IMG/VR virus record: IMGVR_UViG_3300037200_000120
Coordinates: 1 to 64,000 of that record
Source: a virus
DNA: 64,000 nt
Strand: one strand, 5' to 3'
The translations under genes were made by a program, and so were the position numbers. Under the pieces are notes generated by a model. That model was given only the letters and a program-made list of their open reading frames with translations, did not search any database and was not told the DNA's origin. Positions 1-62,597 of this stretch are shown here, one piece after another. The stretch's first letter is position 1. Every line of letters begins with the position of its first letter.

Positions 1-440
1 CCAAATCCCTCTACGCGAGCGGTTGCACCGCCCTGACGGCGATCGACGCGCCTGCGGCCGAAACCCTCGACGCGAGCGGTTGCACCGCCCTGACGGCGAT
101 CGACGCGCCTGCGGCCGAAACCCTCGACGCGAGCGGTTGCACCGCCCTGACGGCGATCGACGCGCCTGCGGCCGAATACCTCTGCGCGAGCGGTTGCACC
201 GCCCTGACGGCGATCGACGCGCCTGCGGCCAAATACCTCTGCGCGAGCGGTTGCACCGCCCTGACGGCGATCGACGCGCCTGCGGCCGAAACCCTCGACG
301 CGAGCGGTTGCACCGCCCTGACGGCGATCGACGCGCCTGCGGCCGAATCCCTCTACGCGAGCGGTTGCACCGCCCTGACGGCGATCGACGCGCCTGCGGC
401 CGAAACCCTCGACGCGAGCGGTTGCACCGCCCTGACGGCG
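1..440. repeat. 57-bp tandem repeat, about 7.5 copies
   Basis: Near-identical 57-bp units begin at 15, 72, 129, 186, 243, 300, 357 and 414 (the last is partial). The period is exactly 19 codons, so any indel by a whole unit keeps frame. Variation between units is confined to the stretch between the conserved blocks (codons reading TLD, YLC or SLY). The repeat lies inside a coding sequence and is not a CRISPR: there are no unique spacers. Confidence 0.95.
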
Positions 441-662
441 ATCGTTCACGGCGGCGAGGATTCGCGCAGCTACTATTTCTACGCCTACCCCATCGCGGGG
501 CAATACCGGATTTTCGCGGGTTGCCGCAATTTCTCGCTCGCCGACGCGCGCAAACATTGGGGTCCGCGCGGAAACAGCGACCGTCCTGATTGTCTTGCCT
601 TAGTCGAGAAGATCGCTGCCGAGATCGAGCGACGCGAATCGCTCTCGCAAGCGGCGGAGTAG
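3..662 (+). CDS. Leucine-rich/BspA-like repeat protein, 3' part
   Basis: This frame is open from the window edge to TAG at 660-662 (219 residues visible, 5' end outside). It reads the 57-bp repeats as 19-residue units of the form LDASGCTALTAIDAPAAE, which has the regular Leu/Ile/Cys spacing of a leucine-rich or similar solenoid. A unique C-terminal domain of about 70 residues follows (FAGCRNFSLADARKHW near its centre). I recall this solenoid plus 'aGCR.F...A..HW' ending from phage-associated repeat proteins. The alternative frame starting near 23 gives a low-complexity Arg-rich product and is rejected. It is separated by 8 bp from the methyltransferase gene. Function is probably protein-protein binding; unknown in detail. 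Confidence 0.75.
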   Translation, partial: KSLYASGCTALTAIDAPAAETLDASGCTALTAIDAPAAETLDASGCTALTAIDAPAAEYLCASGCTALTAIDAPAAKYLCASGCTALTAIDAPAAETLDASGCTALTAIDAPAAESLYASGCTALTAIDAPAAETLDASGCTALTAIVHGGEDSRSYYFYAYPIAGQYRIFAGCRNFSLADARKHWGPRGNSDRPDCLALVEKIAAEIERRESLSQAAE

Positions 663-12189: not shown

Positions 12190-12330
12190 CAGATCGTCCC
12201 TTAACGTCTTCCCCGCCCTAAAGGACGGGGATTTCCACAACCGGAGGCGAACGTTCTCGCCCGACACGTAGAATATTCCAAGCCGCGTTAACGTCGCGAT
12301 CATGCGACGCCCCACAGTCGGAACAAGTCC
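12190..12330 (-). ncRNA. Predicted omega-RNA region of tnpB
   Basis: In IS200/IS605 elements the omega RNA overlaps the tnpB 3' end and runs to the element end. Here the minus-strand transcript carries a stable hairpin (CCCCGUCCUUUAGGGCGGGG, 12211-12230) that includes the stop codon. An almost identical hairpin follows the second, truncated tnpB at 22086-22105. The boundaries given are approximate. Confidence 0.35.
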
Positions 12331-13291
12331 AGTGCCTCACTCCAAGCGCGCCCATACCTTTCGGACTGCTGGCGGGACGAGTCCCACAGCACGAGCACGT
12401 TTGGGAAGTCCATCGTTCGTCAGCTTCGATGTAGCGAGCGTTGTGCCTTCTGGCCTTGTACGCAAGCTGGCTACGGAAGGTCGTCCAACTCGCGTCGAGC
12501 ACGGATTTAGCCATCCGAGTCTTTGCCAGTTGAGCCGCCTTCACATTGCCGACGACGATCAGTTCGTTCTCGCGAGCAATCCGCGTGGACTGTTCGTGAA
12601 GGTGGTGGCGGCGCGTGTTGGCGATCTTGGCGTGGATCGCCTTGACGCGGGCCGAATTGTTGGCGCGTTGCGCTATCGCAAGCTGCGCTTCGTATTGCCG
12701 GTAATGTTGCAGCGCCGGAACCTCGGACCCGTCCGTGCAGACCGCCAGCGTCTTCAACCCAAGGTCAATGCCGATTTCGCCATTGCCGGTCGGAAGGTTG
12801 CCTTCGACCTCGCATTGAAAGGCCACGTACCAGCGCCCGCGCGCATCCTGAGTGAAGCAACCTGCCTTGATAGCGCCGCCGAGGTCGCGCGACTTCCAGA
12901 ACAGAAACCGCCGCTTGAGATAGGTGACGGCGTTTCCGGCGACTTGGACGGCGCGCGGAATAAACGGAACCCACCCAAGCGCCCGCTTCGGGCCGCCGCT
13001 GGCGCGGAACCGCAAGTGGCCTTTCTTGGCGTCGCGGGAGACGGCGAACTGGCGGCAGATCGCGGCCACGGTGTCGGAGTGCAAGCCAAGGTCTTTCGCC
13101 GCGCCGGTGCAAAGCTTGATCAGGTCGAAGCCGGTCGGCCACTTGGTGGCGCGCCCGGCTTTCCATCGCTGCTCAGCCTCGCGCTGAATTTGGCAGCAAT
13201 AGTTCCAGACCTGATTGCACGCCCAAGCGTGGCGGGCGAGATGCTTTCCGGCCCCGCTGTCCTTGACGCGATATTTGAATGTGAGCATCAT
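12218..13291 (-). CDS. tnpB: TnpB-like RNA-guided nuclease (OrfB, IS605 family)
   Basis: The 357-residue protein has RuvC-I GIDLGLKTLAVC (Asp about 176), a RuvC-II strand reading LIVVGNV (about 244-250), a zinc ribbon CSCCG / CSDCG (about 299-326) and RuvC-III DRDVNAAWNIL (Asp about 331-333). The usual RuvC-II glutamate position is Gly 248. This subgroup is common among proteobacterial OrfB proteins; I recall that some TnpBs use a relocated acidic residue. Start chosen at MMLTFKYRVKD; a longer frame to 13348 would overlap tnpA. The guide (omega) RNA is expected to cover the 3' end of this gene and the hairpin at 12211-12230. Confidence 0.85.
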   Translation of the reverse strand: MMLTFKYRVKDSGAGKHLARHAWACNQVWNYCCQIQREAEQRWKAGRATKWPTGFDLIKLCTGAAKDLGLHSDTVAAICRQFAVSRDAKKGHLRFRASGGPKRALGWVPFIPRAVQVAGNAVTYLKRRFLFWKSRDLGGAIKAGCFTQDARGRWYVAFQCEVEGNLPTGNGEIGIDLGLKTLAVCTDGSEVPALQHYRQYEAQLAIAQRANNSARVKAIHAKIANTRRHHLHEQSTRIARENELIVVGNVKAAQLAKTRMAKSVLDASWTTFRSQLAYKARRHNARYIEADERWTSQTCSCCGTRPASSPKGMGALGVRHWTCSDCGASHDRDVNAAWNILRVGRERSPPVVEIPVL

Positions 13292-13321
13292 CCCGGCCGG
13301 TGTAATTGGTCTGAGGCCGAA

Positions 13322-13834
13322 ATGCAAGACTTTCGTACAGGGCGGCATGTTGTCTACGAACTACACGTCCACTTGGTCTTTGTCACGAAATACCGCCGCG
13401 ACGTGCTGTCGGCGCTCGCTATCGACGACATGTCGCGCATCTTCGCCAAGGTCTGCAAAGACTTCGGGGCCGAACTGATCGAGTGTAACGGGGAAGACGA
13501 TCACGTCCATCTTCTCGTGAACTATCCGCCCAAGGTCGCGATTTCCAATCTCGTCAATTCCCTCAAGGGCGTGTCGAGCCGGCGACTTCGCGAGGATAGG
13601 CCCGAAGTGAGCGGGCGCTATCGGCAAGGCGTCCTGTGGTCGCCATCCTACTTTGCAGCGTCATGCGGCGGAGCGCCCCTATCGGTGATTTCACAATATG
13701 TCCGATCCCAAAGAGAGGCGCTTACGCGCCCCGCTATCCCTCCCCGGCCTGAAGGCCGAGGTTTCTCGCGGAGAAACAGATGGCTGACCCATCAGAAACA
13801 ACCACAGGATTCCGGCGCTACGCCATTACCGTGA
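13322..13834 (+). CDS. tnpA: IS200-type Y1 transposase TnpA
   Basis: It has the HUH motif DDHVHLLV (His about 61 and 63) and the catalytic tyrosine in VISQYVRSQ (about 126), preceded by GVLWSPSYFAASCGGAPLSV. These are the hallmarks of single-strand transposases. Family members usually stop soon after the tyrosine helix. Here the frame runs on about 40 codons through the end hairpin into the next gene, so the native stop seems lost or outside. It overlaps the start of the 13780 gene by 55 bp. Confidence 0.85.
   Translation: MQDFRTGRHVVYELHVHLVFVTKYRRDVLSALAIDDMSRIFAKVCKDFGAELIECNGEDDHVHLLVNYPPKVAISNLVNSLKGVSSRRLREDRPEVSGRYRQGVLWSPSYFAASCGGAPLSVISQYVRSQREALTRPAIPPRPEGRGFSRRNRWLTHQKQPQDSGATPLP
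13742..13761 (+). other. Subterminal hairpin at the right end of the IS200/IS605 element
   Basis: CCCCGGCCTGAAGGCCGAGG forms an 8-bp stem with one mismatch and a short loop, similar in form to the opposite end hairpin at 12211-12230. Confidence 0.5.
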
Positions 13835-15476: not shown

Positions 15477-15566
15477 ATGTGCAATTTATCTTGCACATAT
15501 GCCATTTTCCTGTTGACTATGCAACGCCAGTATCCTATCATATGTGCACGGTCAAGGGCACATATG
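15477..15566. promoter_or_regulatory. Promoter with two operator-like palindromes
   Basis: TGTGCAA-N6-TTGCACA (15477-15496) lies just before the DUF6471 start. TTGACT (15513-15518), a 17-bp spacer and TATCAT (15536-15541) form a good rightward sigma70-type promoter. CATATGTGC-N10-GCACATATG (15539-15547/15558-15566), a perfect 9-bp palindrome, covers the start point. GCACATATGC occurs in both palindromes (15493-15502, 15558-15567). Confidence 0.7.
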
Positions 15567-15568
15567 CA

Positions 15569-16552
15569 ATGTCGCAACACTTCCTTCTTTCCTCTAGCGC
15601 CCGCACTCTCAGCCTCGCCCAAGTGCTGCGCATGAGCGATACGGAAGCCGAGACGCTGTTCGCCTCGCTCCGCTGGCCCGATACCAAGGGCGAGCCGGTT
15701 TGCCCAGGCTGCGGTTGCCTCAAGCCCTATACCGATCGCCGCCCAAGCGGCTCGCTGCGCTTCCGTTGCCGCGATTGCGAGGCTTCCTACTCTCTCACCA
15801 GCGGGACACTGTTCGCCTTCCACAAGCTCCCACTCCGCACCTATCTCGCCGCGATTGCAATCTCGGTAAACGAGGTCAAGGGCAAGAACGCGCTCGCCCT
15901 CTCGCGCGATCTGGACGTGCAATACAAAACCGCTTTCGTCCTTTCCCACAAAATCCGCGAAGCCGTCGCCTCGGAAATGAAGGGCGCGCATGTCGGCGGC
16001 GAGGGCAAGGTCGCGGAAGTCGACGGCGCATATTTCGGCGGATATGTGAAGCCCGCCAATCATGCCGAGAACAGAGTTGATCGCCGGTTGGCAGTCAATC
16101 AAAATGGCAAGCGTAAGGTCGTCGTCGTCATTCGCGAACGCGACGGGCGCACGCTCACTCAGGTGTTTAAGAGTGAACTTCAATCAACCACGTTCATTCG
16201 CTCGAGAGTCGCCAAGGGAACCGAGCTGATGGCCGACGAAGCCAACTCTTGGAACAACCTAGAAGCGAGCTTTCCAATCAAGCGCATCAATCATCAAGAG
16301 GCTTACAGCGAAGATGGCGCTTGCACGAATGATGCGGAGAACTTTTTCAGCCGCATGCGTCGCGCCGAGCTTGGCCACTTCCATCATATTGCTGGCGTCT
16401 ATCTCGGTCGCTACGCCGCTGAGTCCGCTTGGCGCGACGACCATCGCGTAGAGCCGAACGGGATGCAGTTCCGCGCCATCATCGGCCTTGTCGCTAAGAA
16501 CAAGCCTAGCGTGGATTTCTGTGGATATTGGCAGAGGGCGAATGGCGCGTAG
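15569..16552 (+). CDS. IS1595-family (ISXO2-like) transposase
   Basis: The 327-residue protein has an N-terminal zinc ribbon (CPGCGCLKPY ... RFRCRDCEASYSLTSGTLF), then the DDE-type catalytic domain: AEVDGAYFGG (first Asp), ELMADEANSW (second Asp) and the ending NDAENFFSRMRRAELGHFHH (acidic third residue region). This matches ISXO2-like transposases. ATG 15569 is preferred over 15479 because the leader contains the promoter and palindromes. I could not find clear terminal inverted repeats, so element ends are not called. Confidence 0.9.
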   Translation: MSQHFLLSSSARTLSLAQVLRMSDTEAETLFASLRWPDTKGEPVCPGCGCLKPYTDRRPSGSLRFRCRDCEASYSLTSGTLFAFHKLPLRTYLAAIAISVNEVKGKNALALSRDLDVQYKTAFVLSHKIREAVASEMKGAHVGGEGKVAEVDGAYFGGYVKPANHAENRVDRRLAVNQNGKRKVVVVIRERDGRTLTQVFKSELQSTTFIRSRVAKGTELMADEANSWNNLEASFPIKRINHQEAYSEDGACTNDAENFFSRMRRAELGHFHHIAGVYLGRYAAESAWRDDHRVEPNGMQFRAIIGLVAKNKPSVDFCGYWQRANGA

Positions 16553-24940: not shown

Positions 24941-24968
24941 TTGACATAAACGCATAATATGCTATTGT
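24941..24968 (+). promoter_or_regulatory. sigma70-type promoter
   Basis: TTGACA, 16-bp spacer, TATTGT; transcription would begin about 12 nt before the long stem-loop leader. Confidence 0.7.
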
Positions 24969-24986
24969 CTAATCACTGAAGGGGAT

Positions 24987-25095
24987 GAAAGAGTTAGGCG
25001 AATCCAGCAAAAGACCCCGCTCACCGGACATTCTCAGCCGGGTAGAGGCCTCTGAAACCGAGGATTTGCTTAGTCTGGATTCACCTAACTCTTTC
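24987..25095 (+). ncRNA. Long stem-loop leader of the 25117 gene
   Basis: The 21-nt arm at 24987-25007 pairs with 25075-25095: 20 Watson-Crick pairs and one G-U. The 67-nt interior can form further helices (CCGG/CCGG; GAGGCCTC). It starts about 12 nt after the predicted transcript start and ends 22 nt before the ATG. It may be a processed small RNA or a 5'UTR control element. Confidence 0.6.
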
Positions 25096-25116
25096 AAACC
25101 AAACGGAGCAACTAAA

Positions 25117-25428
25117 ATGACCATTCCGATGTTGAGGGCTTTTTATGCCCGTAATACCGACTCCCACTATGTGGTTCCCGTCATCGCTGCGCCCACAGAA
25201 CACGGCTGGACGCAAGACGCACTCGCCGCTCATTCGGCGCAGCATCCGAATTGCCCGATTTGGGTTGATATCGAGATCGTAACAATCATGTCTGGCCCCA
25301 ACAAAGGCAAGCGGGCCATCATCAAATGGGGAGGCCAGCCGGAAACGCATACCGCGCTGACGGCGCTCTATGTGAGCGAACAGGGCGCGGAGACGCGGTG
25401 GAGCCGAGTGCTAGGCTTTGTTCCCTGA
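25117..25428 (+). CDS. Hypothetical protein (103 aa)
   Basis: ATG 25117 is preceded by AACGGAGCAACTAAA, the same site as in neighbouring genes. An in-frame ATG at 24985 exists but would translate the stem-loop, so I reject it. Contains GPNKGKRAIIKWGGQPETHT; unknown fold. Confidence 0.6.
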   Translation: MTIPMLRAFYARNTDSHYVVPVIAAPTEHGWTQDALAAHSAQHPNCPIWVDIEIVTIMSGPNKGKRAIIKWGGQPETHTALTALYVSEQGAETRWSRVLGFVP

Positions 25429-31622: not shown

Positions 31623-31644
31623 AATTCAAACTGTACCACTACCC
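31623..31644 (-). repeat. 22-bp inverted repeat, right arm
   Basis: Exact reverse complement of 29791-29812. On the minus strand it holds the stop codon of the amidase gene and the bases after it. Confidence 0.7.
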
Positions 31645-32481
31645 CCTTTCGAGAGCGGCCCACGTCTTCGGCCCGATCAGACCGTCGATATAGAGCCCAT
31701 GAGCCCCTTGAAACTTGGCGATAGCGTTGCGTGTCAGCGTCCCGGCCTGCCCGTCGACCGTGAGCGGCGGCTGCGCGCCGGCTTTGTTGAGTCGGAACTG
31801 CAGGTCTGCCACAGAGCCGAGCGGATAGGTCGATGCTGTCGGATGAACGATCGTGTCGCCTGGCTCATTCCGCGCCGCGCCGCCGTGGGACGGTTCAGGC
31901 AGGACGTTCGGCGGCAGTTCGACCTGATGGGGGGCGGGCAACCCGTGGAGCGCCCAAGTCGGCAGCGGATCGCCGGTGCCGAGATTGGCGTAGTGGATTC
32001 CGACGTGAGTTTCGAAGCTCCGCCACGTCGCATCGCCGACGCCGCAGATATCCACATGCCCTCCGCCGGCCCCGCCGAGATCGTGGTGGCAGCAATAGCC
32101 CCGTCCCTGGCCGCCCTCGGCCCACTGGCGAGGAATCCCATAGGCGTGCAGCAGCCAGGCCACCGCCCACGCGAGGCCGTCCAGCGTCTTGTCGGCGACG
32201 CCCTTGGCGGTGAAGCCGGGCGCCTCGATCGAAACGCCCCGCGAGTTGAACGCGCACTGCGCCCAGGCCTTCATCGACAGCGGGACCAGCTGGGTGAATT
32301 CCGAGCCGTCGTCGTTCATGCACAGATGCGCCGACGCGCCGGCCTGACCAGAACAGAGCCACGAAATCGATCCCAGATAGCCACCCTCCATAAGATGGCA
32401 AATCACCAAATCATGCGAGATCGGCGTTGGAGAATAGTTTGGAGATGGTATTTGTTTTATGACGGGGAGGTCAAACGCCAT
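31639..32481 (-). CDS. Endolysin: N-acetylmuramoyl-L-alanine amidase with PG-binding domain
   Basis: The 280-residue protein has an amidase_2-type catalytic part: HLMEGG with the first zinc His (about 28), SIEAPGFTAKG centre and a GRGYCCHHDLGG block (about 130). The C-terminus (about 215-278) is a PG_binding_1 domain: LQFRLNKAGAQPPLTVDGQA ... AIAKFQGAHGL. No signal peptide, so export would need a holin (candidate 29020). Start ATG 32481. Confidence 0.85.
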   Translation of the reverse strand: MAFDLPVIKQIPSPNYSPTPISHDLVICHLMEGGYLGSISWLCSGQAGASAHLCMNDDGSEFTQLVPLSMKAWAQCAFNSRGVSIEAPGFTAKGVADKTLDGLAWAVAWLLHAYGIPRQWAEGGQGRGYCCHHDLGGAGGGHVDICGVGDATWRSFETHVGIHYANLGTGDPLPTWALHGLPAPHQVELPPNVLPEPSHGGAARNEPGDTIVHPTASTYPLGSVADLQFRLNKAGAQPPLTVDGQAGTLTRNAIAKFQGAHGLYIDGLIGPKTWAALERG

Positions 32482-32494
32482 GCGTAATTTCCCA

Positions 32495-32523
32495 TTGCGG
32501 TTTTCGCGCGGATTCGCTATTGT
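32495..32523 (+). promoter_or_regulatory. Promoter of RNA 1
   Basis: TTGCGG, 17-bp spacer, TATTGT; the predicted RNA begins 7 nt after the -10 box at GGATGC. Same architecture as 32752-32780. Confidence 0.7.
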
Positions 32524-32529
32524 TTTCGC

Positions 32530-32713
32530 GGATGCGCGGCGTCGCGCCAACGGCGGATGATAGAGTAACCATCCTCGATTCAAACATCCGCGGATAGACG
32601 GGAAACTTTGTTGGCGAGTGTCCGAAGCCGCCAAACCTGCCAGCCGGAAGGCAGTAGTCAAAAAGATCGGGTTAAATCGGACAGAAAGCTGCTGTTGAGC
32701 CGTCCGCGCATCC
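32530..32713 (+). ncRNA. Structured RNA candidate 1 (184 nt)
   Basis: The ends pair perfectly: GGATGCGCGG (32530-32539) with CCGCGCATCC (32704-32713). Inside are GCGGATG/CATCCGC, CTGCC/GGCAG and ACAG/CTGT helices. No open reading frame of note. The RNA would start exactly at the first stem base. It has a sibling at 32787-32914. Confidence 0.6.
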
Positions 32714-32751
32714 ACCTACAACCCCCGCAAATTCATTTTGCAAGGCCGCAC

Positions 32752-32780
32752 TTGCGATTCCGCTGAGATTTCGCTATTGT
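32752..32780 (+). promoter_or_regulatory. Promoter of RNA 2
   Basis: TTGCGA, 17-bp spacer, TATTGT; 7 nt later the RNA starts at GGATGC. The bases CGCTATTGTTTTC around the -10 box are the same as for RNA 1. Confidence 0.7.
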
Positions 32781-32786
32781 TTTCTC

Positions 32787-32914
32787 GGATGCACGGCAGC
32801 GTGGAGATCGCCCCCTGAAAAGCCTAGGGTTGGCCTGATCGGGCGGAGAGTTTGGCAGTAGCTAAGCCAAGTTGAGATAGAACCAAGTTCGGGTAATGCC
32901 CGGCCCGCGCATCC
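32787..32914 (+). ncRNA. Structured RNA candidate 2 (128 nt)
   Basis: GGATGCACGG (32787-32796) pairs with CCGCGCATCC (32905-32914), 9 of 10 pairs. It contains CGCCC/GGGCG, TTGGC/GCCAA and CGGG/CCCG helices. The end is followed by ACCA, as in tRNAs. Interior sequence differs from RNA 1, while promoter and closing helix are kept. Confidence 0.6.
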
Positions 32915-32923
32915 ACCAACTGA

Positions 32924-33067
32924 AAACGTGTAGCTCAAGGGTAGAGCGATTTCGCAGAAACAGAGGAAATAGCTGCTGTTCTTGGCCATCGGCCGATGGT
33001 TGCAGGTTCACATGAATAAAACTCTGCGGAGCGATCTATGGAACCGGGTTCGAGTCCCGGCGCGTAG
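32924..33067 (+). ncRNA. Interrupted tRNA-like sequence
   Basis: A D-arm (GCTC-AAGGGTA-GAGC, 32933-32947) and a perfect T-arm (CCGGG-TTCGAGT-CCCGG, 33044-33060) with acceptor strand CGCGTAG are present. They are about 95 nt apart instead of about 25, and five of seven acceptor pairs form. The middle carries no normal anticodon arm that I can find. It may be a tRNA broken by insertion, or two tRNA halves. Confidence 0.35.
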
Positions 33068-33068
33068 C

Positions 33069-33167
33069 CTACAACCCCCGCAAATTGATGACCCGCCAGC
33101 ACAGCCACGCCACGAACAGACATCCCGCGATATCCCATCCATGTTGCTGGATCGCTTGGAGCACCAT
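33069..33167 (-). CDS. Small membrane protein (32 aa)
   Basis: MVLQAIQQHGWDIAGCLFVA then a Trp-rich hydrophobic stretch ending NLRGL. Typical single-helix phage peptide. The last 19 bp of the gene are duplicated at 32715-32733 after RNA 1. Confidence 0.5.
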   Translation of the reverse strand: MVLQAIQQHGWDIAGCLFVAWLCWRVINLRGL

Positions 33168-33196
33168 CGACAAACCTAACCTACAGAGAGGTATCC

Positions 33197-33255
33197 ATGC
33201 CGATCGACTGGCAGCCCTACGACAGCATGCCCCGAGACGGGACCTGCATCGAACG
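33197..33255 (+). pseudogene. 5' fragment of a DUF551-like gene
   Basis: PIDWQPYDSMPRDGTCI is a typical start of small phage DUF551-like proteins, with GAGAGG before the ATG. After about 18 codons the sequence switches to the antisense of an endolysin start. The rest of the gene is missing. Confidence 0.5.
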
Positions 33256-33342
33256 TCGCGTCAGTCCTTCAACGGCCTCGATGATCGCCTGCTCGCCGTG
33301 CGGGGCGGCGGCGCGGAGTTGGGCGGGGGTGAGGGTGGGCAT
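33217..33342 (-). pseudogene. Truncated second endolysin (N-terminal fragment)
   Basis: MPTLTPAQLRAAAPHGEQAI matches the start of phage GH19/chitinase-type endolysins. It follows the S74 fibre gene by a TGATG overlap, as an operon member would. The frame ends after 41 residues in unrelated sequence, so the gene is cut at about 33245-33260. Confidence 0.6.
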
Positions 33343-34910
33343 CACGGTTTCCTTCGCCGCACAACGACAAATGTCAGCCCCGCGCACCAAAGCGCGAGAA
33401 TGCCTACCGCGATCATCAACAGATCGACGCGTCGTTTTTCCTCACTGATTGCTGCCACGAGAACCGCCGTCAATTCCTGATAGCGAACCCCGTGAAGTTT
33501 TCCATCCGCATCGTGGGCAACCAAACGCGGGTCGATACTCTCTAGTTGATGCGCTCCTAGGAATGGCTGCTCTTCTTTGTCACCCGCGTATTCTGGTGTA
33601 TCTTTCTTCCATGTTCCCCAGAATGGTTGCATCTGCGTAACTTCATCGAGGGCTTTTGCTCCATCGAGCGCTTCTGTCTTATCCTTCAATTCTTCCAACG
33701 AGAGAAGACATGTCGTGGTCGTGTCTACCGTTAGGTTTCCAGTACCGGTCGTCCAGCACACCGTCCCCGTTGTCGCTAGGCTAGAAGAAACAAGCGCTGG
33801 CATTGTTACTGCCCCCGGAAGTGTTGCGACTGATGTTGATGGCGTTCCGGCTCCAGAGATCGTGAAGACCCGTCCACCGCCTGCGCACAGCGCTACGACG
33901 TTGCTCTCGTTGCCGTTAGCACAAGCGTCTGCCCCCGTTCCAGCATTTACGATAAAATCATTGTTGCCGGACGTGATCGCCGAGCCGGAGCGTTCGCCTA
34001 TGAGAATATCGCTCGCGCCGGAAGTGAGAGCGCTTCCTGACAGATAGCCGATCACAACCGACGTATTGCCGGAAACTGTGCCAGCCGAATTTGTCCCGGA
34101 GCTCCCTCCAGCTTCGTATCCGATGTAGACGGACCCTATGTTTGCTGCATTTCGCCCTGCGCCGCTGCCGAACGCAGTCAGAAAATTCGCCTGAGTTTCT
34201 ATGTTCCGCAGGGCATCAGTACCAAACACCGACATGCCTTGAACGGCAATCGCAGAAAGCCCGCTTCCGCTGCCGCCGGCGTTAAGACCGAAACACGAGT
34301 TGTAGAAAGATGCGCCCCCAACGCCGAAGCAAGATCTTTCCCCGAACGCGGTATTTTCGGCTCCAGCTATAGAAAAGCTCGACGCCGCATCAAGCTGACT
34401 GAAGTTGAGGAAGAAATTTCCGTTCGATTGCGCCGAGCCGCCTTGCGAAAGACCTGCTGGTTGAACATAAGATGCAATGACGCCGAGTAGCCCTGTAACA
34501 TTCAGCCCCGTACCGCTTCCTGTCGTTGCCGCCTGCGAGCAACTGACCAGCCCGCTAGGAACCGCGCCTGACGAAATGCCTGGGTTCTGCACTACTACCT
34601 GCGTAGGAGATCCTGTCGTAACCGCGAGTATCCCTATCGTCGGAGAGGTTGAAAAACTCACTCCAGGACATTGAAGTGTAACCTGATCCCCCGCTGCATA
34701 ATTCGTCATCGTTCCGGTCGGAGCGCCGATGCCGCTCTGAGCAAGACCGAATTGAAGGCCTCCGAAGTTGGCCACCGCAGAGCCCAAAGGTGTCGGCCCA
34801 CCCGGCGCCATCGGGCCGCCCTGCCCAGGAACCTGCGCCATGCAAATCTGCGCGCCGAGAACGACGGCGAGCACAGCGGTGAAGAGGCGGGAAAGAATGA
34901 ACCTGATCAT
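33342..34910 (-). CDS. Fibre-like protein with signal peptide, S74 chaperone domain and C-terminal membrane helix (522 aa)
   Basis: It begins with a signal peptide (MIRFILSRLFTAVLAVVLG ... MAQ). The middle is Gly/Ser/Ala-rich repeat, as in trimeric fibres (NTAFGERSCFGVGGASFYNS ...). Near residues 395-490 is a peptidase S74-type intramolecular chaperone: LEELKDKTEALDGAKALDEV, FLGAHQLESIDPRLV and VRYQELTAVLVAAI. It ends in a membrane helix (LLMIAVGILALWCAGLTFVV) and RRRKP. Export plus membrane anchoring is unusual for a tail fibre. ATGA overlap with the upstream gene. Confidence 0.8.
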   Translation of the reverse strand: MIRFILSRLFTAVLAVVLGAQICMAQVPGQGGPMAPGGPTPLGSAVANFGGLQFGLAQSGIGAPTGTMTNYAAGDQVTLQCPGVSFSTSPTIGILAVTTGSPTQVVVQNPGISSGAVPSGLVSCSQAATTGSGTGLNVTGLLGVIASYVQPAGLSQGGSAQSNGNFFLNFSQLDAASSFSIAGAENTAFGERSCFGVGGASFYNSCFGLNAGGSGSGLSAIAVQGMSVFGTDALRNIETQANFLTAFGSGAGRNAANIGSVYIGYEAGGSSGTNSAGTVSGNTSVVIGYLSGSALTSGASDILIGERSGSAITSGNNDFIVNAGTGADACANGNESNVVALCAGGGRVFTISGAGTPSTSVATLPGAVTMPALVSSSLATTGTVCWTTGTGNLTVDTTTTCLLSLEELKDKTEALDGAKALDEVTQMQPFWGTWKKDTPEYAGDKEEQPFLGAHQLESIDPRLVAHDADGKLHGVRYQELTAVLVAAISEEKRRVDLLMIAVGILALWCAGLTFVVVRRRKP

Positions 34911-60539: not shown

Positions 60540-60812
60540 TGCTGAACGTTTCCGCTCAGAGAAGACCATATCATGATCTCTCGAAAGAGACCCTGCGCAC
60601 TTCCCGCCGCTTGGCGGTACTCCCCGAAGGGATGGCCGTTGAACCTTCCGCTCATTGAGCGGCTCGGCTGCTGATTGTCCAATCTAGTTGCTTTTCAAAC
60701 TATCGCGCCCGCCGTTGCCGGCCACGCTGTAGTGAACTAGCTCTAAGGATGTTCCAGCAATTCACGCAGTTATTCGACAGTAGTCGCCTACTGAAGGACC
60801 CAATATGTGGCG
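60540..60812 (-). ncRNA. Group I intron-like ribozyme 4 (downstream of the capsid stop)
   Basis: Minus-strand core: GAATTGCTGGAACATCC, GACAATCAGCAGCC, GGTTCAACGGCCAT, GATATGGTC and the P9 hairpin CTGAGCGGAAACGTTCAG. The P7 pair is GGCCAT with ATGGTC where the other introns have GACTA with TAGTC; this is a compensatory change, so the helix is kept. The 5' splice site is uncertain. Its 3' end may lie after the endonuclease gene. Confidence 0.6.
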
Positions 60813-62597
60813 TCACATATAGTAACGAGTCCCGTAGATCCCGCGGAAGTCGCTCCAACCGCAAGAATAACGCTCGTAACAAGCCGCTTTGGCGTTCTTG
60901 GTATCGACGCTTATGTTCGATTTGGATAGCAACTCCAAACCCGTCCTAAGTGGACTGCCTCATATTACTATGAGGGCCAGACTATATCATCATCCTGAAT
61001 ACTCAGGAGTGGGGCGCTTCGGCTCGCTTGAGCCTACGATCTCGCGATCTAGTCGTTGCACCTTCCGTCTCTCGACGGCTTGGCTCAGGATTGTCCCCGG
61101 CACCACCCGGTAGGAGATTCCCTGAGTTCACCCCATTCTTCGATGCGAGTCACCCCGCAAAGGACCTAATTCCAAAGAATTGAGTCGTTGTCCTGATCGC
61201 TAACTATTCGAAATGAATCGCTAATTCATCCCCGGCTTGCGCCTGCTGCACGTTTCCGCGCAGAGTGGACTATATCTTCATCTATTCAATACTGAATAGA
61301 GCTAGGAACTTCGGCCCGCTTGGGCCTACGGTCTCGCGACCTAGTCTCTGAACCTTCATCACGATATTACATGATGCTTGGCTGCTGATTGCCCAATCCT
61401 GCAAATTTTCAAACCGTCACGCTCGCCGTTACCAGCCACGTTGTGGTTTTGCAGGCTCTAAGGGTGTTCCAGCAATTCACCTAGTTTAGACAGCTCCAAT
61501 CATTAAAGCTGATGCCCTCGCGCTCGTACCACATCATCCCGCGCGGGATATTCGTCCTGATAAACCAGGCGGTCGCGCTGGAGAAATAGTGGCTGGCGAA
61601 GATCCCCTTCGGGAAAGCTCCCATGGCGCGCATCACGTTGATGTTGTTGTTCGCCGTGTCGCTCTGAAGCACGCTCTTGTAGATGCGGTTAGCTTCGAAG
61701 ATGAGCTGATAGGGGATATGGAGGGACTGAGGAAGCGCGGAGATTTTCAGCCCGCGCGAATTGACCGTGAGGCCGACCTGGATCAGCAGATCCTCGATTG
61801 CGGTTTCGGACAAGTCCGCCGCCGTCGTGAGGAGATTCGACTGAGAGCCGCCGACAGTCGGATGCGCATTGTTGATCATGCACGTTCCGTCGCCGCCCGT
61901 ATAGGCCGTGTTGAATGCACGGTTGTAGACGTTGGCCGCGATGTTTTCCTTGGTCTGCCGCATCGAGAACGCCAATTGCTGGGCGCGACGCTTGCTGACC
62001 ACTTCGTAGAGATCGTCTTTCAACTCTTCGTACGTGACGATGTAGCCGAGAGCATAGGCGACGTTCGTATAGCGAGTGACCGAACCCTGGGTTTCGGTGT
62101 CGTACACGATCGAAGTGCCTTCGTTCTTGACCGGCGCCAAGCCGAAGCCGGTGATTTCGACCTCTTCTTCGTACGCCTTGTCTGAGGTGTCCTGCTCGAA
62201 CAGATCCGACCATTCGGAAACGTGTTCGTCGTAGGAACGCCCCCACCAAGCCGCGATTCCTGGCCAAAGGGCCTTCGCTTGTTTGTTCGACGCAATTCGC
62301 TAGATTGCGCCCGTCGCTCTAAACGCGACCGCTGCATATCGCTATGCAGGCCTGACTATCTCTTGCCCCTCAATTGATCGATAGGGGCCGCACCATTTCG
62401 GCTCGCTTGAGCCTACGGCCTTTCGGCCTAGTCGATGAACCTTACGACGTGCTATGATCGTCGTCTTGGCTGCTGATTGTCCGATCGTCGGAATCAGAAC
62501 GAGCGGAGTTCCCGGCAATTAAATGCGATCCCATTGCGCATTACGGCGCAATGGCCCGAGTTTATGCAGGATGTGTGCCTGTAGTAATAACGGCCAT
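60813..62597 (-). CDS. Major capsid protein, four exons interrupted by three group I introns
   Basis: Exons: 62568-62597, 62275-61506, 61199-61174, 60907-60813 (minus strand; 30+770+26+95 nt). Spliced, they give a 306-residue protein with no stop: MAVITTGTHP joined to KALWPGIAAW, a long HK97-type core (LGYIVTYEELKDDLYEVVSK, FSMRQTKENIAANVYNRAFN, NINVMRAMGAFPKGI), exon 3 giving FDQDNDSIL, and exon 4 starting in the codon of FDTKNAKAACYERYSCGW. The joined order FDQDND...FDT.NAK is the family's C-terminal pattern. GGAGG lies 7 bp before ATG 62597. Each internal piece ends in a stop if not spliced. Confidence 0.8.
60908..61173 (-). ncRNA. Group I intron 3 in the capsid gene (266 nt)
   Basis: 5' site after exon ATTCTTT, pairing with internal guide GAAGAAT (7 pairs, ending in U-G). 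Core elements GCAACGACTAGATCGCG and GATATAGTC (P7 GACTA/TAGTC). Last base G, before TCGATACC. Confidence 0.75.
61200..61505 (-). ncRNA. Group I intron 2 in the capsid gene (306 nt)
   Basis: 5' site after exon CAGCTT, pairing with guide GAGCTG (six pairs, terminal U-G). Core: AATTGCTGGAACACCC, CAATCAGCAGCC, GGTTCAGAGACTAGG and GAAGATATAGTCC; P9 hairpin CTGCGCGGAAACGTGCAG. Last base G, before CGATCAGG. Confidence 0.75.
62276..62567 (-). ncRNA. Group I intron 1 in the capsid gene (292 nt)
   Basis: 5' site after exon ATCCT, pairing with guide GGGAT (5 pairs, terminal U-G). Core: GACAATCAGCAGCC, GGTTCATCGACTAGGCC and AAGAGATAGTC. Last base G, before AAGGCC. It interrupts the gene after codon 10. 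Confidence 0.8.

Follow-up and report, generated by a model that had tools for sequence, protein, structure and literature searches.

Twin repeats in a phage lysis region as possible small-RNA genes within a decaying tRNA island

Comparison with known structured RNAs

Among the small RNAs of phages that have no known role, some are located close to tRNA islands. Among short RNAs, the bacterial Y RNAs (YrlA) have paired ends together with tRNA-derived modules, and the packaging RNA of the phi29 type is a short phage RNA whose ends also pair. Here we describe two related elements, copies 1 and 2, from a virus record of 98,892 bases, whose initial 64 kb constitute the window. ROOL and GOLLD are structured non-coding phage RNAs that are often found near tRNA islands (PMC12286853), and a short phage RNA in which a helix is followed by an RCCA-like end is of the type that RNase P recognises (PMC11143913).

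The sequence-only reading of this locus recognised no known RNA family in the copies, and our searches agree with it. An Rfam scan at gathering and permissive thresholds yielded nothing above gathering in the region. Matches to CRISPR-DR20 (E 0.92) and leuA-Halobacteria were at chance level, and a match to mascRNA covered only the T arm of a tRNA-like sequence located downstream of copy 2. Neither copy gave a tRNA match at E values up to 10. ARAGORN (-m) reported no tmRNA, and the tmRNA model (RF00023, for which more than 47 bits are required) scored just the tRNA-like neighbour, at 9.9 bits. The copies resemble Y RNAs in their paired ends and tRNA-like neighbour, but the scores are far under gathering: neither copy matches YrlA (RF02553, gathering score 69), and the neighbour produces very weak alignments of 13.5 and 12.2 bits. 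The Y-RNA reading gains no support from a partner protein within the phage record, which contains no TROVE domain, the domain of the Ro/Rsr protein partner of Y RNA.

No match was obtained with the Rfam covariance models of ROOL, GOLLD or OLE. ROOL and GOLLD are far larger than the twin copies (GOLLD often exceeds 800 nt), for which no relatives were found. Phage RNAs processed by RNase P include M3 RNA and C4 antisense RNA; of the twin copies, copy 2 ends in ACCA and copy 1 does not. Both copies differ from such processed phage RNAs in that the helix already begins where transcription is predicted to start. Unlike the phi29 packaging RNA, the copies have no Rfam match, and this phage encodes a P22-type head-closure protein (PHROG 578; 29-57% identical in the related contigs found). 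A retron ncRNA was rejected because the record contains no RVT_1, and a group I intron because the four RF00028 matches are located elsewhere in the window, with none at the island. By these comparisons, the copies would fall within no known family whose definition was tested.

As a separate observation, four group I introns are present within 2 kb on the minus strand (60542-62573), three of which are almost contiguous. The cluster surrounds a frame (61481-62140) with a weak match to a major head protein and adjoins an endonuclease VII-like gene, and it may represent a capsid gene split by several introns.

The tandem repeat and its promoters

The repeat is located on the plus strand of the phage lysis region. 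Copy 1 begins with TTGCGG (32495-32500), followed after 17 bp by TATTGT (32518-32523), and copy 2 with TTGCGA (32752-32757), followed after 17 bp by TATTGT (32775-32780). The two elements are 257 bp apart, and GGATGC starts at 32530 and at 32787, in each case on the seventh base past the −10 box. Measured to the end of GCATCC, the predicted RNAs are 184 nt (32530-32713) and 128 nt (32787-32914), and with the ACCT that follows in copy 1 and the ACCA in copy 2 they extend to 32717 and 32918, respectively. This layout had been described from sequence inspection, as had the difference between the interiors, and both descriptions are correct: the interiors share no similarity above that of shuffled sequences. 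The conserved parts are a left block of 28 nt with 93% identity (32513-32540 versus 32770-32797) and a right block of 16 nt with 94% identity (32704-32719 versus 32905-32920), which give a common start, GGATGC[G/A]CGGC, and a common end, CCGCGCATCCACC. Over the whole promoter region, 46-47 nt align with 81% identity (E 2e-4 within the genome). A MAFFT alignment of both copies did not bring their 3′ ends together.

With the exception of a terminal 57-nt tandem array, the 98.9-kb record has no other direct repeat of at least 26/28 at a distance of up to 1 kb. As a repeat, the observation is above chance and real, although other parts of the original description need correction. It also reaches beyond the region originally described, to include a tRNA-like sequence (approximately 32926-33067) and a 22-nt tail present at 32715-32736 and 33068-33089. 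The excepted 57-nt array occurs at both ends of the record (window positions 1-460 and record positions 98760-98892); the assembly therefore probably broke within it, and the phage genome may be circular or complete.

The TTGCG[G/A]-N17-TATTGT elements, which span 32495-32523 and 32752-32780 and are preceded by GC in both copies, are of a type that is often seen in alphaproteobacterial promoters. The extended −10 sequence of copy 1, GCTATTGT, recurs in identical form downstream of a TTGACA box (24941), at a further strong phage promoter, which makes a sigma-70-type promoter plausible for both copies. A scan with a strict consensus listed neither site. The unit at 24941-25428 (plus strand) merits description in its own right. 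Its promoter, TTGACA-N16-GCTATTGT, is followed by the longest inverted repeat of the record (24986-25007 with 25075-25096; 21/22 pairs, fold z −4.66), located immediately upstream of a small gene or overlapping its start. Neither an Rfam family nor a phage relative was found for it, and as a structured RNA or leader this unit is a stronger candidate than the twin copies.

Upstream, the promoter of copy 1 diverges from an endolysin gene (31639-32481, minus strand; Amidase_2 and PG_binding_1 by Pfam), whose homologues are 67-73% identical. The non-coding island is flanked by this gene and by the minus-strand genes that come next. An upstream extension of the endolysin frame is open to 32715, through copy 1. 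However, the BLAST matches of three viral homologues align with the 280-residue version starting at residue 1-5, DNA similarity to one of these three ends near the start codon, and a ribosome-binding-like GGGA precedes the start at 32481. These features make coding by copy 1 unlikely. The earlier statement that no reading frame explains the repeat holds, and the amidase start falls outside the element. Elsewhere, the early-gene arm carries a 510-residue frame that ends in an IS200-like transposase domain, as well as an IS1595-type transposase (12302-13834 and 15479-16552, plus strand).

End helix, transcript ends and search for relatives

A 10-bp helix had been proposed to close both RNAs, which is accurate in full for copy 1 only. 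There, GGATGCGCGG pairs with CCGCGCATCC at 10 of 10 positions. In copy 2, GGATGCACGG faces the same 3′ arm, CCGCGCATCC, with 9 of 10 pairs and an A·C mismatch, and the sole variable position of the helix is therefore non-compensatory. At spacings of 80-250 nt, perfect 10-bp inverted repeats are commonplace across the genome (28 observed versus 12-34 simulated). A helix at the predicted start site is nevertheless notable, since merely ~5 in 10,000 positions (~5e-4) begin such a repeat. Because the copies are duplicates, this counts once as an observation.

Conserved inverted ends around unrelated interiors would also be expected of MITE-like DNA cassettes, in which the 10-bp arms would be terminal inverted repeats that bound small mobile elements of varied cargo and would form no RNA helix. 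We consider this highly improbable, as the homology runs past the arms by 15 nt on the left, where it includes the promoter, and by ~6 nt on the right. Moreover, no target-site duplication was seen, and the record contains no further copies.

The proposal that both RNAs can form several helices would apply to nearly any sequence of such composition, and only copy 1 surpasses the background. Its fold has a z score of −2.95, and 2.5% of the phage's own 188-nt windows are as low, whereas copy 2 is unremarkable, with a z score of −0.66 that about a third of phage windows reach. The reported terminal ACCA is present in copy 2 only, and tRNA scoring accepts neither copy.

A scan of 32300-33400 detected no terminator-like site after either copy. 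In a model read-through transcript, the 5′ arm of copy 1 pairs with the 3′ arm of copy 2 with a probability of 0.94-0.99, and the private end helices vanish. Separate RNAs would therefore need processing, Rho-dependent ends or ends that the scan missed, and 3′-end formation is the weakest point of the small-RNA reading. The lack of a terminator-like site is in keeping with a different explanation, whereby the promoters alone matter: the duplicated promoter would generate a long read-through RNA toward convergent minus-strand genes, or would interfere with the endolysin gene, and the helices would be incidental. The −35 box of copy 1 is located ~14 bp from the endolysin start codon, and the downstream genes are on the opposite strand, both of which agree with this explanation. 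However, it leaves the conserved 3′ ends, CCGCGCATCCACC, unexplained, and we regard it as unlikely.

Relatives of the repeat were sought in several collections. Exact patterns of the promoter-start block matched nothing in viral contigs or in ~85,000 species genomes, and BLAST against phages and plasmids returned chance-level matches only. The island is missing from three viruses whose endolysin is 67-73% identical, and no endolysin relative was confirmed among the species genomes searched. Among 145 viral loci (50 with the end motif and 95 listed with the −10 motif), which were screened in part by script, with BLAST over all retrieved loci, none had a matching partner or promoter. Other candidates were rejected. 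The tail pattern CTACAACCCCCGCAAATT had four matches in viral contigs, all of which share one position in apparently coding DNA of phages closely related to one another. One relative that bears the amidase contains a 16-nt match, TTCGCGGATGCGCGGC, but inside a long open frame, and the promoter region matched a Sinorhizobium plasmid (E 8) in coding-like DNA that has no −10 box. Because relatives were not found, the finding rests on one genome.

Neither the suggested family of small phage RNAs nor a new RNA family gains support, as no third copy was found in the phage record or elsewhere in the collections searched, and the lone helix difference is uncompensated. It is improbable that the copies represent a modular class of small phage RNAs whose promoter and ends (GGATGC[G/A]CGG and CCGCGCATCCACC) would be fixed while the middle is swapped like a cassette to give each copy a different target or decoy.

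The tRNA-like neighbour and the history of the island

The tRNA-like sequence (32926-33067, plus strand) begins ~10 nt past copy 2. It has a clear D arm (GCTCAAGGGTAGAGC), a clear T arm (CCGGGTTCGAGTCCCGG) and a partial acceptor stem, with an excess of ~70 nt between the two arms. ARAGORN accepts it only with a relaxed score and an allowed intron; with default settings no gene is reported, and there is no RF00005 match at E values up to 1. The T arm is detected by cmscan below threshold. This sequence is probably a broken tRNA gene. It is followed by a copy of the 22-nt tail (33068-33089) that is 95% identical to the tail after copy 1, CCTACAACCCCCGCAAATTCAT (32715-32736). Since the tail follows both copy 1 and the tRNA-like piece, the island looks like a duplicated unit of promoter, RNA, tRNA and tail. 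In the simplest history, an ancestral unit consisting of a promoter, a structured RNA, ACC, a tRNA and the tail would have been duplicated, and the tRNA would then have been lost from copy 1.

Two further similarities point in the same direction. Within the window, copy 1 and the tRNA-like insert are the sole places that contain the word AGCTGCTGTT (0.05 expected). There is also a resemblance between the neighbour's T arm and the 3′ portion of copy 2, with a score reached by 10/1000 shuffles and 5/1036 genome segments (p about 0.005-0.01 for a comparison chosen post hoc). Together with the tRNA-like neighbour and the shared tail, these similarities tie the unit to a decaying tRNA island, and the copies appear to be part of this larger non-coding island.

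The same features are open to an interpretation that is nearly as likely as small promoter-driven RNAs, although itself doubtful. The island might be debris, namely remnants of several genes for tRNAs or tRNA-like RNAs, with their promoters, that were duplicated by recombination and are degenerating, with any RNA having no function of its own. The extra ~70 nt in a tRNA that default ARAGORN and RF00005 reject, the T-arm resemblance, the distribution of AGCTGCTGTT and the background-level folding of copy 2 all agree with decay. So do short frames on both strands at 33197-33341 (MPIDWQPYDSMPRDGT on the plus strand and MPTLTPAQLRAAAPHGE on the minus strand), which resemble truncated gene starts and suggest past deletions next to the island. 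However, neutral decay should not hold the promoter, start and end at 93-94% identity while the interiors lose all similarity.

We tentatively favour, at somewhat less than even confidence, the reading in which the twin copies are orphan, promoter-driven genes for small RNAs, within a tRNA island of the phage that is decaying. Each copy of this tandemly duplicated non-coding transcription unit would have its own host-type promoter, with transcription starting at or beside GGATGC, and the RNA 5′ end would pair with its own 3′ end. The end helix and the short single-stranded ACCA or ACCU tail might confer stability by shielding the ends, or might offer a tRNA-acceptor-like end to host processing enzymes for 3′-end formation. 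The function of the unrelated interiors could be to act on separate targets. This reading is favoured by the retention of the promoter and both RNA ends around dissimilar interiors, the helix at the predicted start site, the fold of copy 1, the lack of a coding explanation, the reuse of the −10 box at 24941, and the tRNA-like neighbour with its tail. Against it are the lack of relatives, the uncompensated helix change, a copy 2 that folds like shuffled sequences, the lack of a terminator-like site, the loss of the private helices in the read-through model, and the absence of the island from relatives with a 67-73% identical endolysin.

At present the pair is an orphan, with evidence from one genome. 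Such a duplication, with fixed ends and unrelated middles, would serve as a natural test of which parts of these RNAs matter.
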